DNA from: Caldimicrobium sp.
GTDB lineage: Bacteria > Desulfobacterota > Thermodesulfobacteria > Thermodesulfobacteriales > Thermodesulfobacteriaceae
Assembly (NCBI GenBank): GCA_025059715.1
Contig: JANXCE010000001.1
Coordinates: 1-64,000, forward strand
Direction: 5' to 3'
Length of the DNA: 64,000 bases
Both the position numbers and the translations under genes were made by a program. Under the pieces are notes generated by a model that worked only from the letters and a program-made list of their open reading frames with translations, made no database searches and had not been told where the DNA came from. Below, piece after piece: positions 1-9,981 of the stretch. Every line of letters begins with the position of its first letter. Position 1 is the first letter of the stretch.

Positions 1-3000
1 TTGTATGAGCCCACATACTTGGGTGTGAGTATTGTCCAGTCTTCCTCTCCATCTATGACACCGTACCATTCCTCAGAACTTTTTCCAAAGAGTATTGCCT
101 CTTGATCTAAAAAGGGTAGTCTCCCTCCAACATAGGAGTGTCCAACCCAAGGGTTGAAGTTAGAGGAGTAATTTCCATAGGTCAGCGTAGTAAGTATCCC
201 GATAATATTATCCTGATAAGTTGCATTAAGATAATAAAAAGTATTATTTAATGATACACTGGTGAGTCCATAAGAGTGATGACGGGTAAAAGTTGACGAA
301 GAGGGTGTGAAGTTTCCAAAACTAAAAAAATTCGTAAAATTACTTGCTGAAAGTCCTATGTGTTTCACATTATCCTTATCTAAATAAATTTCTCCGAGTT
401 CCCATATCCAATCTGAATCTGAATATATTTCAACTTCACTTAAGGTTCCTTGAGGACTGAGGTAAAATCCGTGGGCATAGGGTCTAAGTTGGGGTGAGGT
501 TGCATTTCTATAATAACCAGAAAGAAGCCCTATGAAAGTTCCATTTCCAAGGGGCGTTCCGTTTCCAGAGATAAGCGTGGGTTTAATTAAGCCATAATTA
601 TCCGTAGAATTTATAGTAGCGCTAAGAGTGATGGGATTATAAGCAAAATTCCAGAATGATCCATTGTTGAGGGTTGCATTGACCAAGATAGAACCTGTTA
701 AGTTCCCAATTTCATAAAGCCCACCTGTAGTAAGCCTAATTATATTGGCAGTAAAGTCAGAAATGCTTAGCGCAGAGGGATAACTCAGTATTTGGGGACT
801 GTGAGGGCCATAATTCATTACATAACCTGCACCTGTTCCCAAAAAAGTGCCGTTGTTGTAGAAGTTACCTGCGCCCCATCCTTCAAATCCAATATCATAT
901 ATACCTAAGACTCCAGTTCCGTTAATTAAGGCAGACCACTTATTATTTGACCACTGCCTCACGATGAACCGAGCACTAAGACCTCCACCAGTAAGTGTAG
1001 CATAGTCTCCGGTGCTAAGGGAATCTAAGTAAGTTCCGTATATTCCGTATATCTTATTTGTTGCCCAGAGGCGAGGGCTATGTCTGCTTGTGGGTGCTAA
1101 AAATACCACATCTTCCATAGTAAGACTGGGTATTTTTGTGCCACTACCAGTGAGCGTTACCCTTCCAACCTCTACCGAAGGAATTTGGAGATTCTTTAAG
1201 GCTATTCGGCCCTCATATGAATTTAAGAGCTCTAAAAGCTTATTCGTCTCCAGATATACTCCAGCCATAGGTATAAACCAATCGTAAGAAGTGAATGGCC
1301 CCTCCAATCTGGCATTACCCACTACGATGCCGGTCATTGGATTATTCACCTCCAGATTCGCCAGTGCACCATAAATGGGATAACCGTAAGAGGGATGACT
1401 GTAAAAGTGTTCAGTAAGTGAATAACCATATAGTATAAGTAAATTTCCAGTATTGCTTGAAGACATGACCTTAAGCTCATGTTCTGTATGACCATAAAGG
1501 TGAGTGGAATTACCCCACAAAACAAGATTAAAAGTTCCAAACTCTGGATGGCCAGTAATATGCTGAAATACAGGTGTTATGTAATTATATGAGGTGATAC
1601 TTCCATTAAAGTTAAGATAAAAGGTATAGACTTTGATGTTTCCAGTCAAAGTTCCATTAAAGTTGAATCCCGTGAGGCTAAAATCAGTGGAATTAGAAAC
1701 TCCAAGGGGGACTACATATAGGGGCAATTCACCCTCGTAAGCGTTAATCGAAGAATAAAAATAACGATCGTAATCATAGTTATTTAATAAAATGAGCCCT
1801 ATCTGATTGCTATTATTCTTAAAGAGTCCCGTGAATAATAGTAATGGAATATTACTAAATTCGCCACTAAATTCATTATAGAATCCTACAATATTTCCCT
1901 GAAAGGCACCCCCTTCGTAGCTCGTATAAGTGCTTGAATAGTCATTAAAACTTTTAACGGTAGATAGAATTAACTCCAAAGTGGAATTGCCACTGAGTCT
2001 ATCACCAAGCAGTAGGGTGAGAGCAGGTTTTCCTATAGTTGAATTCCAAAGAGAGGCCTCTGAGCCAAGATAGAAGGTTGCATTGGCGATAGGTAATGGA
2101 AAATTAGGGTTAAAGTAAGTAGAGTTTATGGTTTGAGCATAAAACTTTAGGGGTGATAAGTGAAAGGAACCAAGACTTACCATTTCATAAAAACTTGAGT
2201 TCTGCCCCAAGGGATAATTACCAATCATGTCTCCTTCGTAAAAGCCTATATGCTTTGGTGTGAGAATGCGCCACTCTTCATATCCAGTTATGGTTCCATT
2301 TGTCCAGTTTCCACTGCCACCTCCTACAAATCTTGCCTGTGCTCCTAAGAAGGGAAGCTCGCCCTTAACCATGTGGTTAAATTCATTTTCTTCACTAAGG
2401 GAGCCTGAGTAATTTCCATAATATAAGGTAGCAAGTATTCCTACAGTCCTTTCAGGAGTGTTGTTATACAGATAGTAAAAAGTATTATTTGAAATATATA
2501 TTTGAGGATTCCCATTTAAAGGTATGCCAGGTCCTATCCTCCATCCATATAGATTTATGGTGCTTGAAGGGGGAGAGTGGTTGCCAAAATGAAGGGAATT
2601 TCTGAAAGTTTCTGGCGATAGTCCTATATAAATAAATTCATCTCTATCTAAATACAATTTGCCATGAGCAAGAAAATTACCATGCTCGGTAGGGAGACTT
2701 TCACTAAATTCCATTTCCAGTCCTCCAACAGTGCCAGAGGGATCAAGATAAAATCCCAGAGCATGGGGTTTAAGATAGGAAGTATCTTCAATTCTTCTGT
2801 GGTATCCCGAAAGCAGTCCCACAAAAGTTCCGTTTGCTACAGGGGTTCCATTTCCCCTGATAAGAGTAGGTCCAATTAAACTGGAATTAGAGGTAACGGT
2901 TGCATTCAAAATAATGGGATTTATTGCAAAATTCCAGAGGGCTCCGCTGGTAGCATTAGATAGGTCCAGGAGGAGATGCCCAGTTAGGTTGCCAGAGGGG
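1..3000 (-). repeat. Large in-frame duplicated module (about 2.24-2.29 kb period) in the FecR protein
   Basis: Module 1 begins near base 3000 and module 2 near base 715 (reading leftward), the latter cut by the window edge. Matching protein landmarks include GNGTPVANGTFVGLLSGY (around 2800-2870) against GNGTPLGNGTFIGLLSGY (around 515-580), and ILTPKHIGFYEG (near 2240) against ILTPKYVGSY (near 5-35). The first pair is offset by 2289 bases (763 codons), the last by about 2235, so short in-frame indels have accumulated. The modules are diverged at DNA level, so this is an old duplication. Confidence 0.8.
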
Positions 3001-4145
3001 GTAGTAAATGTTCCAGGGGACACCAGGGAACTCGTAAAGAGTGTGGATATTTGATTAGACAAAAGTGGAGGTTCAGAGGCGGGCGGTTGAGAGGGCAAAA
3101 TTATCTCTGGATTAGTTTCTGTTATGGGTGGTGGGGTAGGAGTTGTTAATTCTGGGGGATTAATTAAAATAGTTTGAATTGGTTGAAAGGTTTGAGTTTG
3201 TATCAATTCTTCTGGTTTTATTAGCCCCTCGAGGGTGAACTTAGGGAGTTCGGTTGTTAGTGGCGGAGTTGTGGCAGGTTGCAAATCTGGAGTGGGAGGA
3301 GTAGTTGGTGAAATTTGGGTTGTTTGTTCTGTAGTAGGTTGAGCTAAAGTAACTGGTTGAGTTGGAGTGGGTTGTTCTGGTGAAGTTGTTTGTGCAGGTT
3401 GATCTCCCTGAGGAGGTTGGCCTGGTTGAGCTTGAGCCAAGCCCCCCTGATCTTCAGGCCTCTCTGGTGGAGTAGTTTCCACTCTTTTCTCTATATAGGT
3501 CTCCTTTTCAAGTTGTTTCATTTCTTTTTCAGTTGCGGCTCGGGGTGGAGCGGGAGGTTTTCCCTCGGATATGAAGGTTATTTGTCCGGGCTGGACTATT
3601 ACTACTTTGTCAGGTATCTGAGGATTATAAGTATAAACTTGGCCAGTTTTAACCAGAACTCCCGTTGCAACTCGTTCGTGAAAAACAAAGAAGTCGGTTC
3701 CCCTAACTCCTGCCACTGCCACGGGGGTTTTTATCTCAAATTTATGTTTCTTTGGATCCTGCTCTATTTTTTTACTGAGCTCTGGATTCACTTGGGCTTG
3801 AACCGTTCCCCTTTTGACTTCCAGAACCGCTCTGTTGGCCTCATCAAGTAGATATTCGCTTATGTCTACTCTTGATCTCTGGGCAACTCTAAGAACAGAA
3901 CCATCGGTGAAGGTTATCTCAAGCTTGGCACCACTTTTGGTTCTGAGGACATCTTTTTCGTAAATTAAATCGTTGAGTTTTAAAGGAATTGCCGGTATTT
4001 TCCCACCCCTCAGGACCTCCGCTACTCCCTCTATTCCAGTTACCTTTCCCACAGGCTTTGCTTGAAGGAGAGTAGCATTTAATATTAAAAAAACAAGCAA
4101 AGAAATAAGGACCAGGATAATTTTCCTAACATACACAATATTCAT
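1..4145 (-). CDS. Giant secreted FecR-domain repeat protein (partial, runs off left edge)
   Basis: An uninterrupted minus-strand frame starts at ATG 4143-4145 and continues past base 1, giving at least 1381 residues. I translated it at several points and saw no stop. The N-terminus (MNIVYVRK then a long hydrophobic run to about residue 30) looks like a signal peptide. Residues about 31-200 form a FecR-type domain (PF04773-like), with the hallmark TPVAVAGVRGTDFFV. A Pro/Thr/Gln-rich linker follows (about 205-365). The rest is a long beta-rich, Asn/Gly/Thr/Tyr-rich region with few Cys or Lys, built from a roughly 760-residue module repeated at least once. The upstream neighbour on the same strand, 10 bp away, is a TPR/outer-membrane barrel gene, so the pair may be a surface protein and its assembly or export partner (inference). 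The true C-terminus and any anchoring domain lie outside the window. Confidence 0.85.
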   Translation of the reverse strand, partial: MNIVYVRKIILVLISLLVFLILNATLLQAKPVGKVTGIEGVAEVLRGGKIPAIPLKLNDLIYEKDVLRTKSGAKLEITFTDGSVLRVAQRSRVDISEYLLDEANRAVLEVKRGTVQAQVNPELSKKIEQDPKKHKFEIKTPVAVAGVRGTDFFVFHERVATGVLVKTGQVYTYNPQIPDKVVIVQPGQITFISEGKPPAPPRAATEKEMKQLEKETYIEKRVETTPPERPEDQGGLAQAQPGQPPQGDQPAQTTSPEQPTPTQPVTLAQPTTEQTTQISPTTPPTPDLQPATTPPLTTELPKFTLEGLIKPEELIQTQTFQPIQTILINPPELTTPTPPPITETNPEIILPSQPPASEPPLLSNQISTLFTSSLVSPGTFTTPSGNLTGHLLLDLSNATSGALWNFAINPIILNATVTSNSSLIGPTLIRGNGTPVANGTFVGLLSGYHRRIEDTSYLKPHALGFYLDPSGTVGGLEMEFSESLPTEHGNFLAHGKLYLDRDEFIYIGLSPETFRNSLHFGNHSPPSSTINLYGWRIGPGIPLNGNPQIYISNNTFYYLYNNTPERTVGILATLYYGNYSGSLSEENEFNHMVKGELPFLGAQARFVGGGSGNWTNGTITGYEEWRILTPKHIGFYEGDMIGNYPLGQNSSFYEMVSLGSFHLSPLKFYAQTINSTYFNPNFPLPIANATFYLGSEASLWNSTIGKPALTLLLGDRLSGNSTLELILSTVKSFNDYSSTYTSYEGGAFQGNIVGFYNEFSGEFSNIPLLLFTGLFKNNSNQIGLILLNNYDYDRYFYSSINAYEGELPLYVVPLGVSNSTDFSLTGFNFNGTLTGNIKVYTFYLNFNGSITSYNYITPVFQHITGHPEFGTFNLVLWGNSTHLYGHTEHELKVMSSSNTGNLLILYGYSLTEHFYSHPSYGYPIYGALANLEVNNPMTGIVVGNARLEGPFTSYDWFIPMAGVYLETNKLLELLNSYEGRIALKNLQIPSVEVGRVTLTGSGTKIPSLTMEDVVFLAPTSRHSPRLWATNKIYGIYGTYLDSLSTGDYATLTGGGLSARFIVRQWSNNKWSALINGTGVLGIYDIGFEGWGAGNFYNNGTFLGTGAGYVMNYGPHSPQILSYPSALSISDFTANIIRLTTGGLYEIGNLTGSILVNATLNNGSFWNFAYNPITLSATINSTDNYGLIKPTLISGNGTPLGNGTFIGLLSGYYRNATSPQLRPYAHGFYLSPQGTLSEVEIYSDSDWIWELGEIYLDKDNVKHIGLSASNFTNFFSFGNFTPSSSTFTRHHSYGLTSVSLNNTFYYLNATYQDNIIGILTTLTYGNYSSNFNPWVGHSYVGGRLPFLDQEAILFGKSSEEWYGVIDGEEDWTILTPKYVGSY

Positions 4146-4155
4146 AATTATACCC

Positions 4156-5028
4156 CTAAAACTCATAATCAATCCCTATGGAAAAGGGTTTTTTGTCATA
4201 ATCGTAAACCTTTATGTTGGATTTGTTTCTAATGTAAACTCCTTGACAATTGATGCTCAGTCCTCTATATAGGATCCATCTTAAAAGAAAACCACCTGTC
4301 ATTTGGGTATCCTTTCTTTTTTTTCCAAACACAGTATGGACATAATTGAATCTTAGAGTTGAATAGTCTCCAAAAAGTGAAAGACTTAATTTTTTATGAA
4401 GGGGGATAAGAACTGTTCCAGAAAGTTTATCCCCTTTATTTTTCCAGTTTTTACCCTTAGCTTCGTTAATTTGATGTTCGTATCTTAGGTTAACCATTCC
4501 CCGACCCTCGGCAAAGCTGTAAATATAACCTAAACCAAAGTTGTAATGGGTTGAAGTTCTGCTCTCTTCCTCTTCTCTCTGCCAAGGATATTTTCTAATC
4601 ATTCTGGTTTTGCCATAACCAGTATAAAATTGAGAGAGGTGATTCTCCATGAGAATTAAATTCAAGCTGGGTTTTAAGGAATAGTTTTCTGAATATTCCT
4701 TTTCGTCAAGCCAATTTCGGGTGTAGGAGGTAGGTATAGAAAACATGCCCTTTGGAAGGTGAAATCCTGGAATACCTAAAAAGGTAATACTTTTGGTATT
4801 TAAATTGTCAAATCTTCCATAGTAGCTTGTGCTGAGATGGGATTGGAAATTGAAATACCATGGGGGTTCTATTAGAGGTTGAATCTCTAATCTAAGGGAG
4901 CCTGAATTTATAGTGTCATAGGCTCTTTTGACTATGGTTCCATCTGCTCCAACTGCGTTGTCATCATATTGATAATTAAGGGAAAGTCCTATCTTTAAAA
5001 ATTTATGTTCTTTAATTAGCCGTTCCAA
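4156..5028 (-). CDS. C-terminal beta-barrel fragment of the interrupted TPR-barrel protein
   Basis: This is the region after the in-frame TAG, counted from the first possible TTG start at 5026-5028 (290 residues). That TTG has no clear ribosome site and no signal peptide, so independent synthesis of a functional outer-membrane barrel is unlikely. The sequence shows repeated amphipathic beta strands (SLNYQYDDNAV, SLSLFGDYSTLRFNYV, GLSINCQGVYIRN) and a C-terminal Phe. I interpret it as the barrel half of the upstream TPR gene rather than a separate gene. Confidence 0.6.
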   Translation of the reverse strand: MERLIKEHKFLKIGLSLNYQYDDNAVGADGTIVKRAYDTINSGSLRLEIQPLIEPPWYFNFQSHLSTSYYGRFDNLNTKSITFLGIPGFHLPKGMFSIPTSYTRNWLDEKEYSENYSLKPSLNLILMENHLSQFYTGYGKTRMIRKYPWQREEEESRTSTHYNFGLGYIYSFAEGRGMVNLRYEHQINEAKGKNWKNKGDKLSGTVLIPLHKKLSLSLFGDYSTLRFNYVHTVFGKKRKDTQMTGGFLLRWILYRGLSINCQGVYIRNKSNIKVYDYDKKPFSIGIDYEF

Positions 5029-5148
5029 AGCTCGCTCATACTCCTTGGCAAACTCTGCAAGTTCACTTTTAGGGTCTATAGAAGTAACGATTTTAAGAGT
5101 TTGTAGAGCAGTTTTAAATTTTCTCTTCTTTATTTGAGCTAAAGCTAT

Positions 5149-5655
5149 CTAGAGATTAGCCGCCTGTTCCAAGGTGGGATCTAATTTTTTGGCTTCTTCA
5201 AAAGCTATGATAGCCTTGTCAATCTTGCCCTCCCTGAGGTGTAATAGCCCCTTGAGAAAGCTCACCTGAGCCGGTCTAACCTTTTCACCTTCTGCTTTAG
5301 CAAGCCAAAATTGGGCTTCCTTAAGATTATCCAGGGTAAGGAGAAGCTCTATTAGATCAAAATAGGCCTCTATTACTGGTGGTTGCAAAGTTACTGCCCG
5401 TTTGAATTCTTCAATAGAAGCTCTGATTTCTCCCATTTGTCTCAGTGTAAGGCCAAGAAAGTAGGCAACTAAAGCCGACTCTGGATTTTGTGCTTTAGCT
5501 ATTTTCAAACTTTCAAGGGCTTCCTCGTAATTTTCTGCCTGAAACTGCCTTATTCCCTCTTCCAACGGATTTGTCTGAGAATAAACTAAGCTAAAAAGGG
5601 CGCATAGGATTAAAAGGGAAAATAATGTAGTTAATATCGTCTTCCTTCTAAACAC
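5149..5655 (-). CDS. N-terminal fragment of the interrupted TPR-barrel protein (signal peptide and TPRs)
   Basis: This is the part that would be translated if the TAG at 5149-5151 terminates: 168 residues. It has a GTG start preceded by a GAAG-type ribosome site, a hydrophobic signal segment (about residues 6-26, ending near VYSQ), and about four TPR motifs (for example NYEEALESLKIAKAQNPES and GKIDKAIIAFEEAKKLDP). Without the downstream barrel it would be a small periplasmic TPR protein. A sigma-70 type promoter lies 25 bp upstream. Confidence 0.75.
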   Translation of the reverse strand: MFRRKTILTTLFSLLILCALFSLVYSQTNPLEEGIRQFQAENYEEALESLKIAKAQNPESALVAYFLGLTLRQMGEIRASIEEFKRAVTLQPPVIEAYFDLIELLLTLDNLKEAQFWLAKAEGEKVRPAQVSFLKGLLHLREGKIDKAIIAFEEAKKLDPTLEQAANL

Positions 5656-5680
5656 AATCTTCTTCCATTTTTTAGCAATT

Positions 5681-5708
5681 ATTATATTGTAATTTATTAA
5701 CGAGTCAA
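5681..5708 (-). promoter_or_regulatory. Sigma-70 type promoter for the TPR-barrel/FecR unit
   Basis: On the minus strand TTGACT (plus 5703-5708) and TATAAT (plus 5681-5686) are separated by 16 bp. The -10 box ends 25 bp before the GTG start of the TPR gene. It would drive the TPR-barrel gene and the FecR gene, which are separated by only 10 bp. Confidence 0.7.
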
Positions 5709-6231
5709 GATAAAAAATGCATAAGTTTTACTATCTTATAGAAATATATCTATCACTGCAGAGTATTCTCAACAAAGAGGGAAAAAAGTCGAAGGTAAGT
5801 ATGGAATCAAGATGCAAAGAAATCTTGAGAGACTCAACTCAACTAAACTGAGAATATCAAGAGGAAAGCACAAAAGCATTGGCGGGAGAGGTTGTGGATT
5901 TTATTAGAGATTGATTTGGTGAAAAGAGAGGAATGAAGCGGTCTCAGTATTGAAGATAGGGAGGAGAATAAGGTATTTGAAAGATAGGGGGTAACTTCGA
6001 GGGAAGGCAGAAGTGAGATTAAGCTTATATGCAAATTTGATTATCCGAGGAATCCGAAGGGGGAATAGATATGTAGTGCGATTAAATAGGACGATAGATG
6101 CGGATCTGATATAATATATGGAGGAGTTGGGGTATGATATATTGGGGTTTAATAGGGAGCTGATGAAGTATTTGTTGTGGGATAAAGTGGAGAGGTGGCC
6201 TTATGGATTGAATTGAGCTTATACATAAGGC
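5709..6231. other. Long non-coding stretch with a decayed transposase
   Basis: About 520 bp without an intact gene between two divergent units. The right-hand part (about 5990-6215) holds a recognisable transposase fragment on the plus strand. The left part (5709-5980) is purine-rich on the plus strand and may be earlier, unrecognisable parts of the same element. I found no terminal inverted repeats or target duplication. Confidence 0.5.
5990..6216 (+). pseudogene. Eroded integrase-core transposase remnant (C-terminal end)
   Basis: Allowing one extra G near base 6060, the plus strand reads YPRNPKGNRYVVRLNRTI, then a stop, then YMEELGYDILGFNREL, MKYLLWDKVERWPYGLN and a terminal TGA. This parallels the conserved C-terminal part of IS481/IS3-type rve transposases (YPRNPK..AYVERFNRTIQEE, then ..FN..L..YL.WYNTERPH.GL). 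The catalytic Glu position (VERFNRTI) is Val-Val-Arg here, and the NTERPH motif has decayed. With at least one frameshift and one internal stop it is a dead copy. Family assignment is from the motif pattern only. Confidence 0.55.
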
Positions 6232-6259
6232 TTGTTTTTTAGTAGAGTGCTATTATACT
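6232..6259 (+). promoter_or_regulatory. Candidate promoter for the coiled-coil gene
   Basis: TTGTTT (6232-6237) and TATACT (6254-6259) are spaced by 16 bp, 33 bp upstream of the ATG at 6293. The -35 is imperfect and the -10 is good. Confidence 0.4.
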
Positions 6260-6292
6260 TATTGAATATGGCTTAGATTGAGGGGTGAACAG

Positions 6293-6805
6293 ATGAATGG
6301 AGTGGAAGTTTTGAGTCAGAGTGAGTTAAAGGAGTGGATGGCTTCCATAGTGGAAGAGGTGATAAAGGAAAAGCTGAAGGAGTTTATAATTAAGCATGAG
6401 CGGGAGACAAGGGAGATCTCCTTAGTGGAGAGGCTATTAAGGTTGGAGGAAGAGTTAAAGTTTTTGAGGCAGTTAGAGGAGGAGAGATTTTCCGCCTTGT
6501 TAAAGGAAATGAACACCCGTTTTGAAGCCATGAATGCCCGTTTTGAAGCTCTGCAAAAGGAAATGAACACCCGTTTTGAAGCCATGAATGCCCGTTTTGA
6601 AGCTCTGCAAAAGGAGATGAACACCCGTTTTGAAGCTCTGCAAAAGGAAATGGATACCCGCTTTGAGGCAATGAATACCCGTTTTGAGGCCATGAATGCT
6701 CGTTTTGAGGCCTTAGATAGAAGATTTAACTTCCTGCAGTGGTTAATTGTAGCAGGTTTTTCCTTTTTGAGCCTTCTTCTTGTTTTAATAAGATTTGGAT
6801 CCTAA
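6293..6805 (+). CDS. Repeat-rich coiled-coil protein with C-terminal membrane anchor
   Basis: About 170 residues. I chose ATG 6293 because AGGGGTGA sits just upstream; an in-frame TTG at 6278 would add five residues. The N-terminal half is a charged helix (SELKEWMASIVEEVIKEKLKEF). It is followed by a coiled coil of near-identical MNTRFEA / MNARFEA / LQKE units (residues about 73-140). It ends in one hydrophobic segment (FLQWLIVAGFSFLSLLLVLI) and a short tail, so it is probably anchored in the inner membrane with the coil on one face. No enzymatic domain is visible. Similar RFE-repeat proteins are common in thermophilic bacteria, but their function is unknown to me. It stands alone beside a decayed transposase. 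Confidence 0.7.
   Translation: MNGVEVLSQSELKEWMASIVEEVIKEKLKEFIIKHERETREISLVERLLRLEEELKFLRQLEEERFSALLKEMNTRFEAMNARFEALQKEMNTRFEAMNARFEALQKEMNTRFEALQKEMDTRFEAMNTRFEAMNARFEALDRRFNFLQWLIVAGFSFLSLLLVLIRFGS
6509..6712 (+). repeat. Tandem coding repeat, 54-bp unit with 21-bp sub-units
   Basis: The unit encodes MNTRFEAMNARFEALQKE (18 residues, 7+7+4). Two copies are nearly identical at DNA level, followed by a shortened copy (MNTRFEALQKE) and by degenerate MDTRFEA/MNTRFEA/MNARFEA 7-mers. Such high DNA identity suggests recent slippage or unequal exchange, so copy number may vary between strains. Confidence 0.8.
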
Positions 6806-8984: not shown

Positions 8985-9981
8985 CCTCTTCCTCCTCTAT
9001 GTGATGTTGTTGGATTGCTTTTTCCAGTTGATTTGCTAAGTCTAGCTTAGCAAAGTGTAAGGCCTGTCTTAAGGCATTTTTTATAGCAAGGGCATCGGAC
9101 TTTCCATGGGATATAATCACATTGCCCTTAACCCCCAAAAGAGGAGCTCCTCCATATTCGCGCCAATCCGTCTTCTTTTTAAAGGCCTTTAAAGCACCCT
9201 TAGCCAGAGACATTCCTAAGAGATAAAGAAAGGATTCTTTCACTTCCTTTTTTAACATCTCCAGAATGGTTTCCGCAAGTCCCTCCGATAATTTCAAACA
9301 TATGTTACCTATAAATCCATCACAGACTACAATGTCAACCTCTCCCCTATAAATGTCTCTGCCTTCAATGTTACCATAATAGTTAAGTGAGGAAGCGGAT
9401 AAGAGTTTATGGGTCTCCTTGACTAAGAAATTGCCCTTTCCAATTTCCTCTCCAATAGAGAGGAGGGCAATTTTAGGTTGAGGTCTTCCCCAAATCGTCT
9501 CAAGAAAAAGATTGGCCATAACCGCAAACTGATAGAGATCATAGGGTTTAGAATCCACATTAGCTCCCGCATCTATAAGAACCATAGGTTCGCGAAGAGT
9601 GGGAAGTAGGGTGGCAATAGCCGGTCTTCTAACCCCAGTTAGCCGTCCCAAGATAAACATGCTTCCCGCAACCACCGCTCCAGAATTACCAGCAGAAACA
9701 AAGGCTTGAGCATACCCCTTTTTTAGTAAGTCAAGACCAACAAAAATACTTGCGCCTCTCTTTTTTTTAAGAGCCTCTCCCGGAGACTCATCCATATAAA
9801 CCACTTCTTCTGCAAAAATGCCCTCTACTCTCGGATAAGTGAGGAAAGGTGCTATGACCCTTTGGGGACCAACTAAAACTAAATGTAGTTCAGGAAAACT
9901 CTTCAGAGCGAAAGTTGCTCCTTCAAGAGTAACTTGGGGGGCAAAATCTCCCCCCATTACATCTAAAGCTATGCGATACAT
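8974..9981 (-). CDS. plsX: Phosphate acyltransferase PlsX
   Basis: 335 residues. PlsX converts acyl-ACP to acyl-phosphate, feeding PlsY in phospholipid synthesis. It is usually peripheral on the inner membrane. Family signatures seen: N-terminal RIALDVMGGDFAPQVTLEGA, the substrate-loop region ARKKGAS-like (KKKRGASIFVGLDL), VSAGNSGAVVAGS, PMVLIDAGANVDSKP and DIVVCDGFIGNICLK. It starts 11 bp after rpmF and overlaps fabH. It is part of the DUF177-rpmF-plsX-fabH operon. Confidence 0.97.
   Translation of the reverse strand: MYRIALDVMGGDFAPQVTLEGATFALKSFPELHLVLVGPQRVIAPFLTYPRVEGIFAEEVVYMDESPGEALKKKRGASIFVGLDLLKKGYAQAFVSAGNSGAVVAGSMFILGRLTGVRRPAIATLLPTLREPMVLIDAGANVDSKPYDLYQFAVMANLFLETIWGRPQPKIALLSIGEEIGKGNFLVKETHKLLSASSLNYYGNIEGRDIYRGEVDIVVCDGFIGNICLKLSEGLAETILEMLKKEVKESFLYLLGMSLAKGALKAFKKKTDWREYGGAPLLGVKGNVIISHGKSDALAIKNALRQALHFAKLDLANQLEKAIQQHHIEEEEVAD

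Follow-up and report, generated by a model that had tools for sequence, protein, structure and literature searches.

A single in-frame TAG interrupts a conserved TPR and outer-membrane-barrel gene next to a FecR-domain gene in Caldimicrobium sp.

A TPR/outer-membrane-barrel gene of Caldimicrobium sp. is cut after residue 168 by one in-frame TAG, with an open frame on both sides of it. The gene lies on the minus strand of the window analysed in this work, a stretch of 64,000 nucleotides (assembly GCA_025059715.1, contig JANXCE010000001.1, positions 1 to 64,000). A nonsense interpretation is favoured over the alternatives, and we consider it reasonably probable that the TAG terminates translation and represents a real and recent null allele in a conserved gene encoding TPRs and a roughly 14-stranded barrel, whose intact product would be a Slam/T11SS-like translocator for the adjoining FecR-domain protein, the latter now staying inside the cell or being degraded.

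Results

The interrupted frame and its two parts

The frame runs from 5655 to 4156 of the window on the minus strand (499-500 codons), and contains exactly one internal stop, the TAG at 5149-5151, which occupies codon 169. Its start is a GTG preceded by a stretch that appears purine-rich by eye, and its 3' end encodes ...IDYEF followed by the terminal TAG at 4156-4158. A candidate sigma-70-like promoter (TTGACT-16-TATAAT, 5681-5708, minus strand) is located about 26 bases upstream of the GTG; it is a consensus match only, at 11 of 12 positions, and the best of the 7 sites detected in the region, where 6.4 were expected in shuffled sequences. The first open part (5149-5655, minus strand), of 168 aa and ending in the TAG, comprises a signal-like N-terminus and TPR helices, as seen in the structural model, whereas the second (4159-5148, same strand) carries the remaining TPR helices, followed at the C-terminus by a barrel of about 14 strands that closes with a final Phe. 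A search of the read-through protein against its own genome returned this one place, with the TAG inside, and no second copy at E<=0.001; together with the frame itself, this confirmed the single TAG with open sequence on either side that a sequence-only reading of the window had described.

The model of the read-through protein (mean pLDDT 94.5, pTM 0.76) displays a TPR superhelix joined to a barrel, predicted to have about 14 strands according to our reading of its DSSP string, and residue 169 falls within a helix spanning residues 160-176. By Pfam profiles, TPRs lie within the first 200 residues, and DUF2860 matches residues 366-498 (24.1 bits, cut-off 22.9). Relatives encode the protein in one open frame, with matches over its full length, and the model keeps its confidence through the junction. 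The halves therefore belong together and are not a chance juxtaposition, in agreement with the continuous TPR helices leading into a Phe-ending barrel that had been proposed from the peptide.

The residue replaced by the stop

In a phylum sample of 395 genomes, 59 displayed a match at E<=1e-12, including the genome under study, and from the 58 others 28 relatives with near full-length matches were aligned; at the position of the stop, 25 of them carry Gln, 2 Arg and 1 Ala. Several matches outside this alignment are partial or in two pieces, and in the search table the latter have a frameshift-like appearance (G187:C93, G112:C18 and G330:C33). A scan of named genomes provided 80 loci, of which 74 hold the gene as a full-length single frame, so that one gene, not two, normally encodes both halves. 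The six loci left out of the corresponding alignment were L169, L171 and L183 (contig ends), L173 (frameshift), L174 (in-frame TAG) and L181 (a TPR-only distant hit). Among the 74 full-length relatives, Gln is found in 69 (CAG in 60, CAA in 9), with R, H, N, E and A in the remainder, and none has a stop codon at position 169. The stop thus sits at a nearly invariant Gln, and the loss of a sense codon, for which a CAG-to-TAG change had been suggested, is supported.

Regarding the two broken named loci, L174 (7980-9671) carries its own in-frame TAG at 9228-9230, within the barrel and elsewhere than position 169, and adjoins an open FecR ORF of 2162 aa; in L173 (8001-9453) the TPR-barrel gene matches in two frames. 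Such breaks are scattered rather than programmed. Internal TGA or TAA codons were also observed in TPR-type matches of relatives at G031:C43:4060-4578, G012:C1:123346-123876, G013:C1:1092331-1092846 and G019:C7:70052-70564.

Genomic setting

The contig carries duf177-rpmF-plsX-fabH-PAS/HTH in the order of the genus, which is kept in four genus relatives, and its PlsX is 74-84% identical to theirs (84% in G003). Given this gene order and identity, the contig is native, and contamination as its source was rejected. A search of the other 24 genomes of the family found no FecR gene and, for the TPR-barrel gene, nothing beyond TPR-only matches; in G003 the PAS/HTH gene has another gene after it. 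As the flank is native, the pair was either gained in the window's genome or lost in the other genomes of the family. Upstream of the interrupted gene, the non-coding stretch 5670-6275 is a dispersed degenerate repeat, partially matched at 20 other places of the same genome (71-84% identity), and positions 6278-6805 hold a coiled-coil-like gene in which a short motif recurs in tandem in nearly identical copies.

Recent null allele or consensus error

No further stops or frameshifts were found in the TPR-barrel frame. The window protein keeps 59 of the 77 residues conserved at the 80% level and 82 of 115 at the 70% level, in both cases the lowest of 75 rows, and 41 of 47 at the 90% level, the fourth lowest. 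At the 80% level the next lowest count (61/77) is that of L104, the nearest relative of the window protein, and the end branches of the two are similar, at 0.97 (window protein) and 0.83 (L104). Low retention is therefore largely a trait of the branch, and it was rejected as proof of relaxed constraint. With one stop, no frameshift and a retention resembling that of L104, the earlier argument against long decay holds.

With the stop confirmed, the relatives whole and recoding unlikely (see below), the TAG is either a null allele of recent origin or an error in the consensus, and the lack of decay fits both equally. According to the latter explanation, the TAG would be a consensus or assembly error, or else a minority allele, and the gene would be whole in most cells. 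We regard this as unlikely, albeit worthy of weight: the assembly consists of 80 contigs with an estimated contamination of 4.8%, the contig breaks off about 5 kb from the stop, within a gene that has repeated units, and decay elsewhere in the interrupted gene does not exceed that of its nearest relative. Against it, only one base is substituted, the site lies away from the contig end, and consensus error rates are low.

A TPR-barrel family with a FecR-domain neighbour

The TPR-barrel family, whose hosts include Thermodesulfobacteriota, Nitrospirota, Omnitrophota and others, shows a partial sequence relationship to Slam proteins: among 75 members, 25 matched SlipAM (PF04575) and 45 matched TPR_Slam (PF24575) at E<=0.01. 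The barrel of the window reached 15.1 bits with SlipAM, under the cut-off of 22, over profile positions 57-287 of 288. When ten barrels were scanned alone, four scored over the cut-off (L105, 35.4; L178, 35.2; L106, 34.4; L110, 26.0), those of L104 (21.6) and L112 (16.6) remained under it, and no SlipAM row was obtained for L168, L165 and L130. In fold comparisons, the best matches of the barrel among solved structures were CymA (Z 22.2) and OmpG (Z 21.0), and the top Foldseek match of the whole chain was BcsC, with PelB also listed; Slam structures were not among the fold matches listed for the whole chain or the barrel, which excludes nothing.

The neighbourhoods of the 74 full-length loci were surveyed for FecR-domain genes. 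Such a gene lies downstream on the same strand in 68 of them, starting within 300 bases in 54 and farther away in 14, and the encoded proteins range from 271 to 2295 aa (complete ORFs). It was not seen in the other six loci, five of which have less than 1.4 kb of sequence left, the sixth (L126) having 8 kb.

In the window, the partner gene (1-4145, minus strand) begins about 10 bases downstream of the barrel gene, with ATG 4145 chosen as its start (the ORF listing gives TTG 4172). It encodes a signal-like N-terminus, a FecR domain (PF04773, 3636-3953, 55.3 bits, cut-off 24), a P/T/Q-rich linker and a pair of related units. Aligned to each other, these units are identical in 119 of 282 columns (score 475, against at most 86 in 100 shuffles). 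The frame is free of stops as far as position 1 of the window, which is the first base of the contig (C11), and there it runs off; its end is unseen, so the gene cannot be called intact as it had been in the sequence-only reading.

The first unit contains a C-terminal domain that is conserved in the partner family (825-1427, minus strand). With the end of this unit as query, 31 ORFs matched (blastp, E<=0.01), in each case with the best match at most 72 residues from the C-terminus. A profile of the domain was found in 33 of 54 ORFs (32 of 54 with a stricter profile), a count that leans towards itself because the profile derives from blastp hits among the very ORFs in which it was then searched. 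From the 38 terminal matches listed an alignment was made, leaving out the L165 fragment; no Pfam family is common to the 38, DUF6252 being the most frequent with 2. The domain comprises about 190 residues and is modelled as beta-rich (pLDDT 87.6). Foldseek returned nothing under E 0.001 for this model, and its other fold matches are weak, with a best Z of 5.5; small barrels, hemophilin, TbpB, LbpB and fHbp appear among the best 50 at Z of about 3.7-4.6, below the level that can be trusted.

An additional internal copy of the C-terminal domain is present in the partners of L105, L152 and L173. Short FecR partners of 290-332 aa, without the domain, were observed in L106 (9455-10333), L107 (9392-10261) and L112 (9416-10411); these perhaps correspond to another cargo type or to a split system. 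L112, where the pair is intact, comes from a Geotalea sp. SG265 record.

Comparison with known secretion and export systems

The available excerpts of PMC8406197 and PMC12282271 describe the T11SS of Proteobacteria, in which DUF560 proteins have 14-stranded barrels with TPRs and the cargo has C-terminal barrels. The present family resembles these proteins in its N-terminal TPRs, its C-terminal barrel of about 14 strands, its size of about 500 residues, its adjoining candidate cargo gene and the matches of its members to PF04575 and PF24575. It differs in that its neighbour is a FecR-domain protein, not a lipoprotein of TbpB/hemophilin type, and in its hosts, namely Thermodesulfobacteriota, Nitrospirota, Omnitrophota and others; moreover, the barrel of the window scores below the SlipAM cut-off, and we consequently do not claim membership in Slam/T11SS. 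FecR is not mentioned in the excerpts of PMC8406197, PMC12282271 and PMC10066038, and no report on FecR with DUF560, T11SS or a TPR-barrel/FecR pair was found in the open-licence literature. With these likenesses and differences in view, the family could be made up of Slam-like translocators with FecR-domain cargo.

The intact protein could otherwise be a polysaccharide exporter, with the FecR-domain protein as a bystander or regulator. BcsC, PelB and PgaA work with polysaccharide synthases, and the barrels of BcsC and PelB have 16 strands. The combination of TPRs and barrel is the same, BcsC is the best whole-chain fold match with PelB also among those listed, and exopolysaccharide exporters of the BcsC/PgaA/PelB type likewise carry TPRs, as stated in the excerpted text of PMC8406197. 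Nevertheless, the model has about 14 strands against the 16 given there for PgaA (PMC8406197), SlipAM and TPR_Slam are matched within the family, the neighbourhoods, as surveyed for FecR-domain genes, show such a gene with great regularity, and no sequence-family match of the BcsC/PelB/PgaA kind scored over its cut-off. We judge such an exporter improbable.

Two other arrangements share single traits with the pair. Two-partner secretion (TpsB/TpsA) also places the gene of an outer-membrane transporter beside that of a large exoprotein; TpsB is, however, a POTRA/FhaC-type barrel, and Pfam found no POTRA match in the window protein. The FecA-FecI-FecR system shares the FecR domain of the partner, whereas here the barrel protein has TPRs and no TonB-receptor match (Pfam), and no sigma factor was recognised by eye beside the pair among the listed window ORFs.

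TAG as a terminator

Read-through of the TAG had been raised as an explanation, together with a search for a suppressor tRNA. Among 46 tRNA matches in the genome (RF00005 search with ARAGORN on the matched stretches, covering regular tRNAs in the assembled sequence), none has a CUA anticodon. RF1 is intact (prfA, 542.7 bits, over the cut-off), and the two genome matches to PylS are weak, at 22.6 and 18.8 bits against a cut-off of 178.15, which one of 14 control genomes passed. A tRNA-Sec gene with UCA was identified at G000:C7:12411-12499, so the organism may make selenoproteins; this tRNA reads UGA and not UAG. In addition, TAG terminates 13 of the 52 long frames of the window, including both parts of the TPR-barrel gene. 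Two of these ends lie between neighbours in the same frame: a gene that we take to be gatB-like ends in TAG before a presumably mtnA-like ORF, and a presumed NtrC-type gene does so before an ORF that we assume to be flgB-like, and a sense reading of TAG would join the members of each pair into one protein. The long in-frame continuations after 31713 and 60198 were accordingly rejected as further interrupted genes, being the separate flgB-like and mtnA-like genes.

A reading of the TAG as an amino acid, by a suppressor, pyrrolysine, a code change or programmed read-through, would yield a full-length protein, and would suit the frame being open on either side of the stop and the conserved residues kept before and after it (20/24 and 20/22, respectively, at the 90% level). 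Besides the tRNA, RF1 and PylS results and the ordinary use of TAG between in-frame neighbours, this reading is opposed by the RNA after the stop, which folds no better than shuffles (z 1.45), and by the 74 relatives without a stop at that place. Recoding of TAG in this genome is unlikely; read-through and suppression were rejected on this evidence, and for a full-length product made in this way we see very little likelihood.

Equally hard to credit is that the parts act as separate proteins, with a new start for the barrel at TTG 5028: the longest ORF after the stop does begin there (4156-5028, minus strand, 290 aa), but it covers the barrel only and, by reading, lacks a signal peptide, so that its product would not reach the outer membrane, the relatives encode one chain, and the TPR superhelix of the model would be cut within a helix.

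Discussion

Under the favoured interpretation, a null allele that is probably real and recent rather than a consensus error, termination at the TAG would leave the cell with only a 168-residue periplasmic TPR fragment, and no barrel would be inserted in the outer membrane. In an intact system, the FecR-domain protein encoded alongside would cross the inner membrane, the TPRs would guide its C-terminal domain to the barrel, and the Slam/T11SS-like translocator would move the cargo to or through the outer membrane. With the barrel lost, the FecR-domain cargo would in this lineage stay inside or be degraded.

A wider proposal is more tentative, and we hold it with some doubt. The broken gene may belong to a branch of Slam-like translocators not described so far, distributed in Thermodesulfobacteriota, Myxococcota-labelled deltaproteobacteria, Nitrospirota, Nitrospinota and Omnitrophota, which would export large FecR-domain surface proteins by means of a conserved C-terminal domain to which no common Pfam family gives a match; the window would then offer a natural case of translocator loss beside the cargo.

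The stop itself is an ordinary event, and its family context is of more interest. The TPR-barrel/FecR pair is conserved across several phyla and resembles a protein secretion system described for Proteobacteria in the excerpts of PMC8406197 and PMC12282271. If the FecR-domain protein is the cargo, the pair would give environmental lineages a means of bringing large proteins to the cell surface, with a C-terminal targeting domain that is directly testable, and the natural null would serve as a ready comparison strain.
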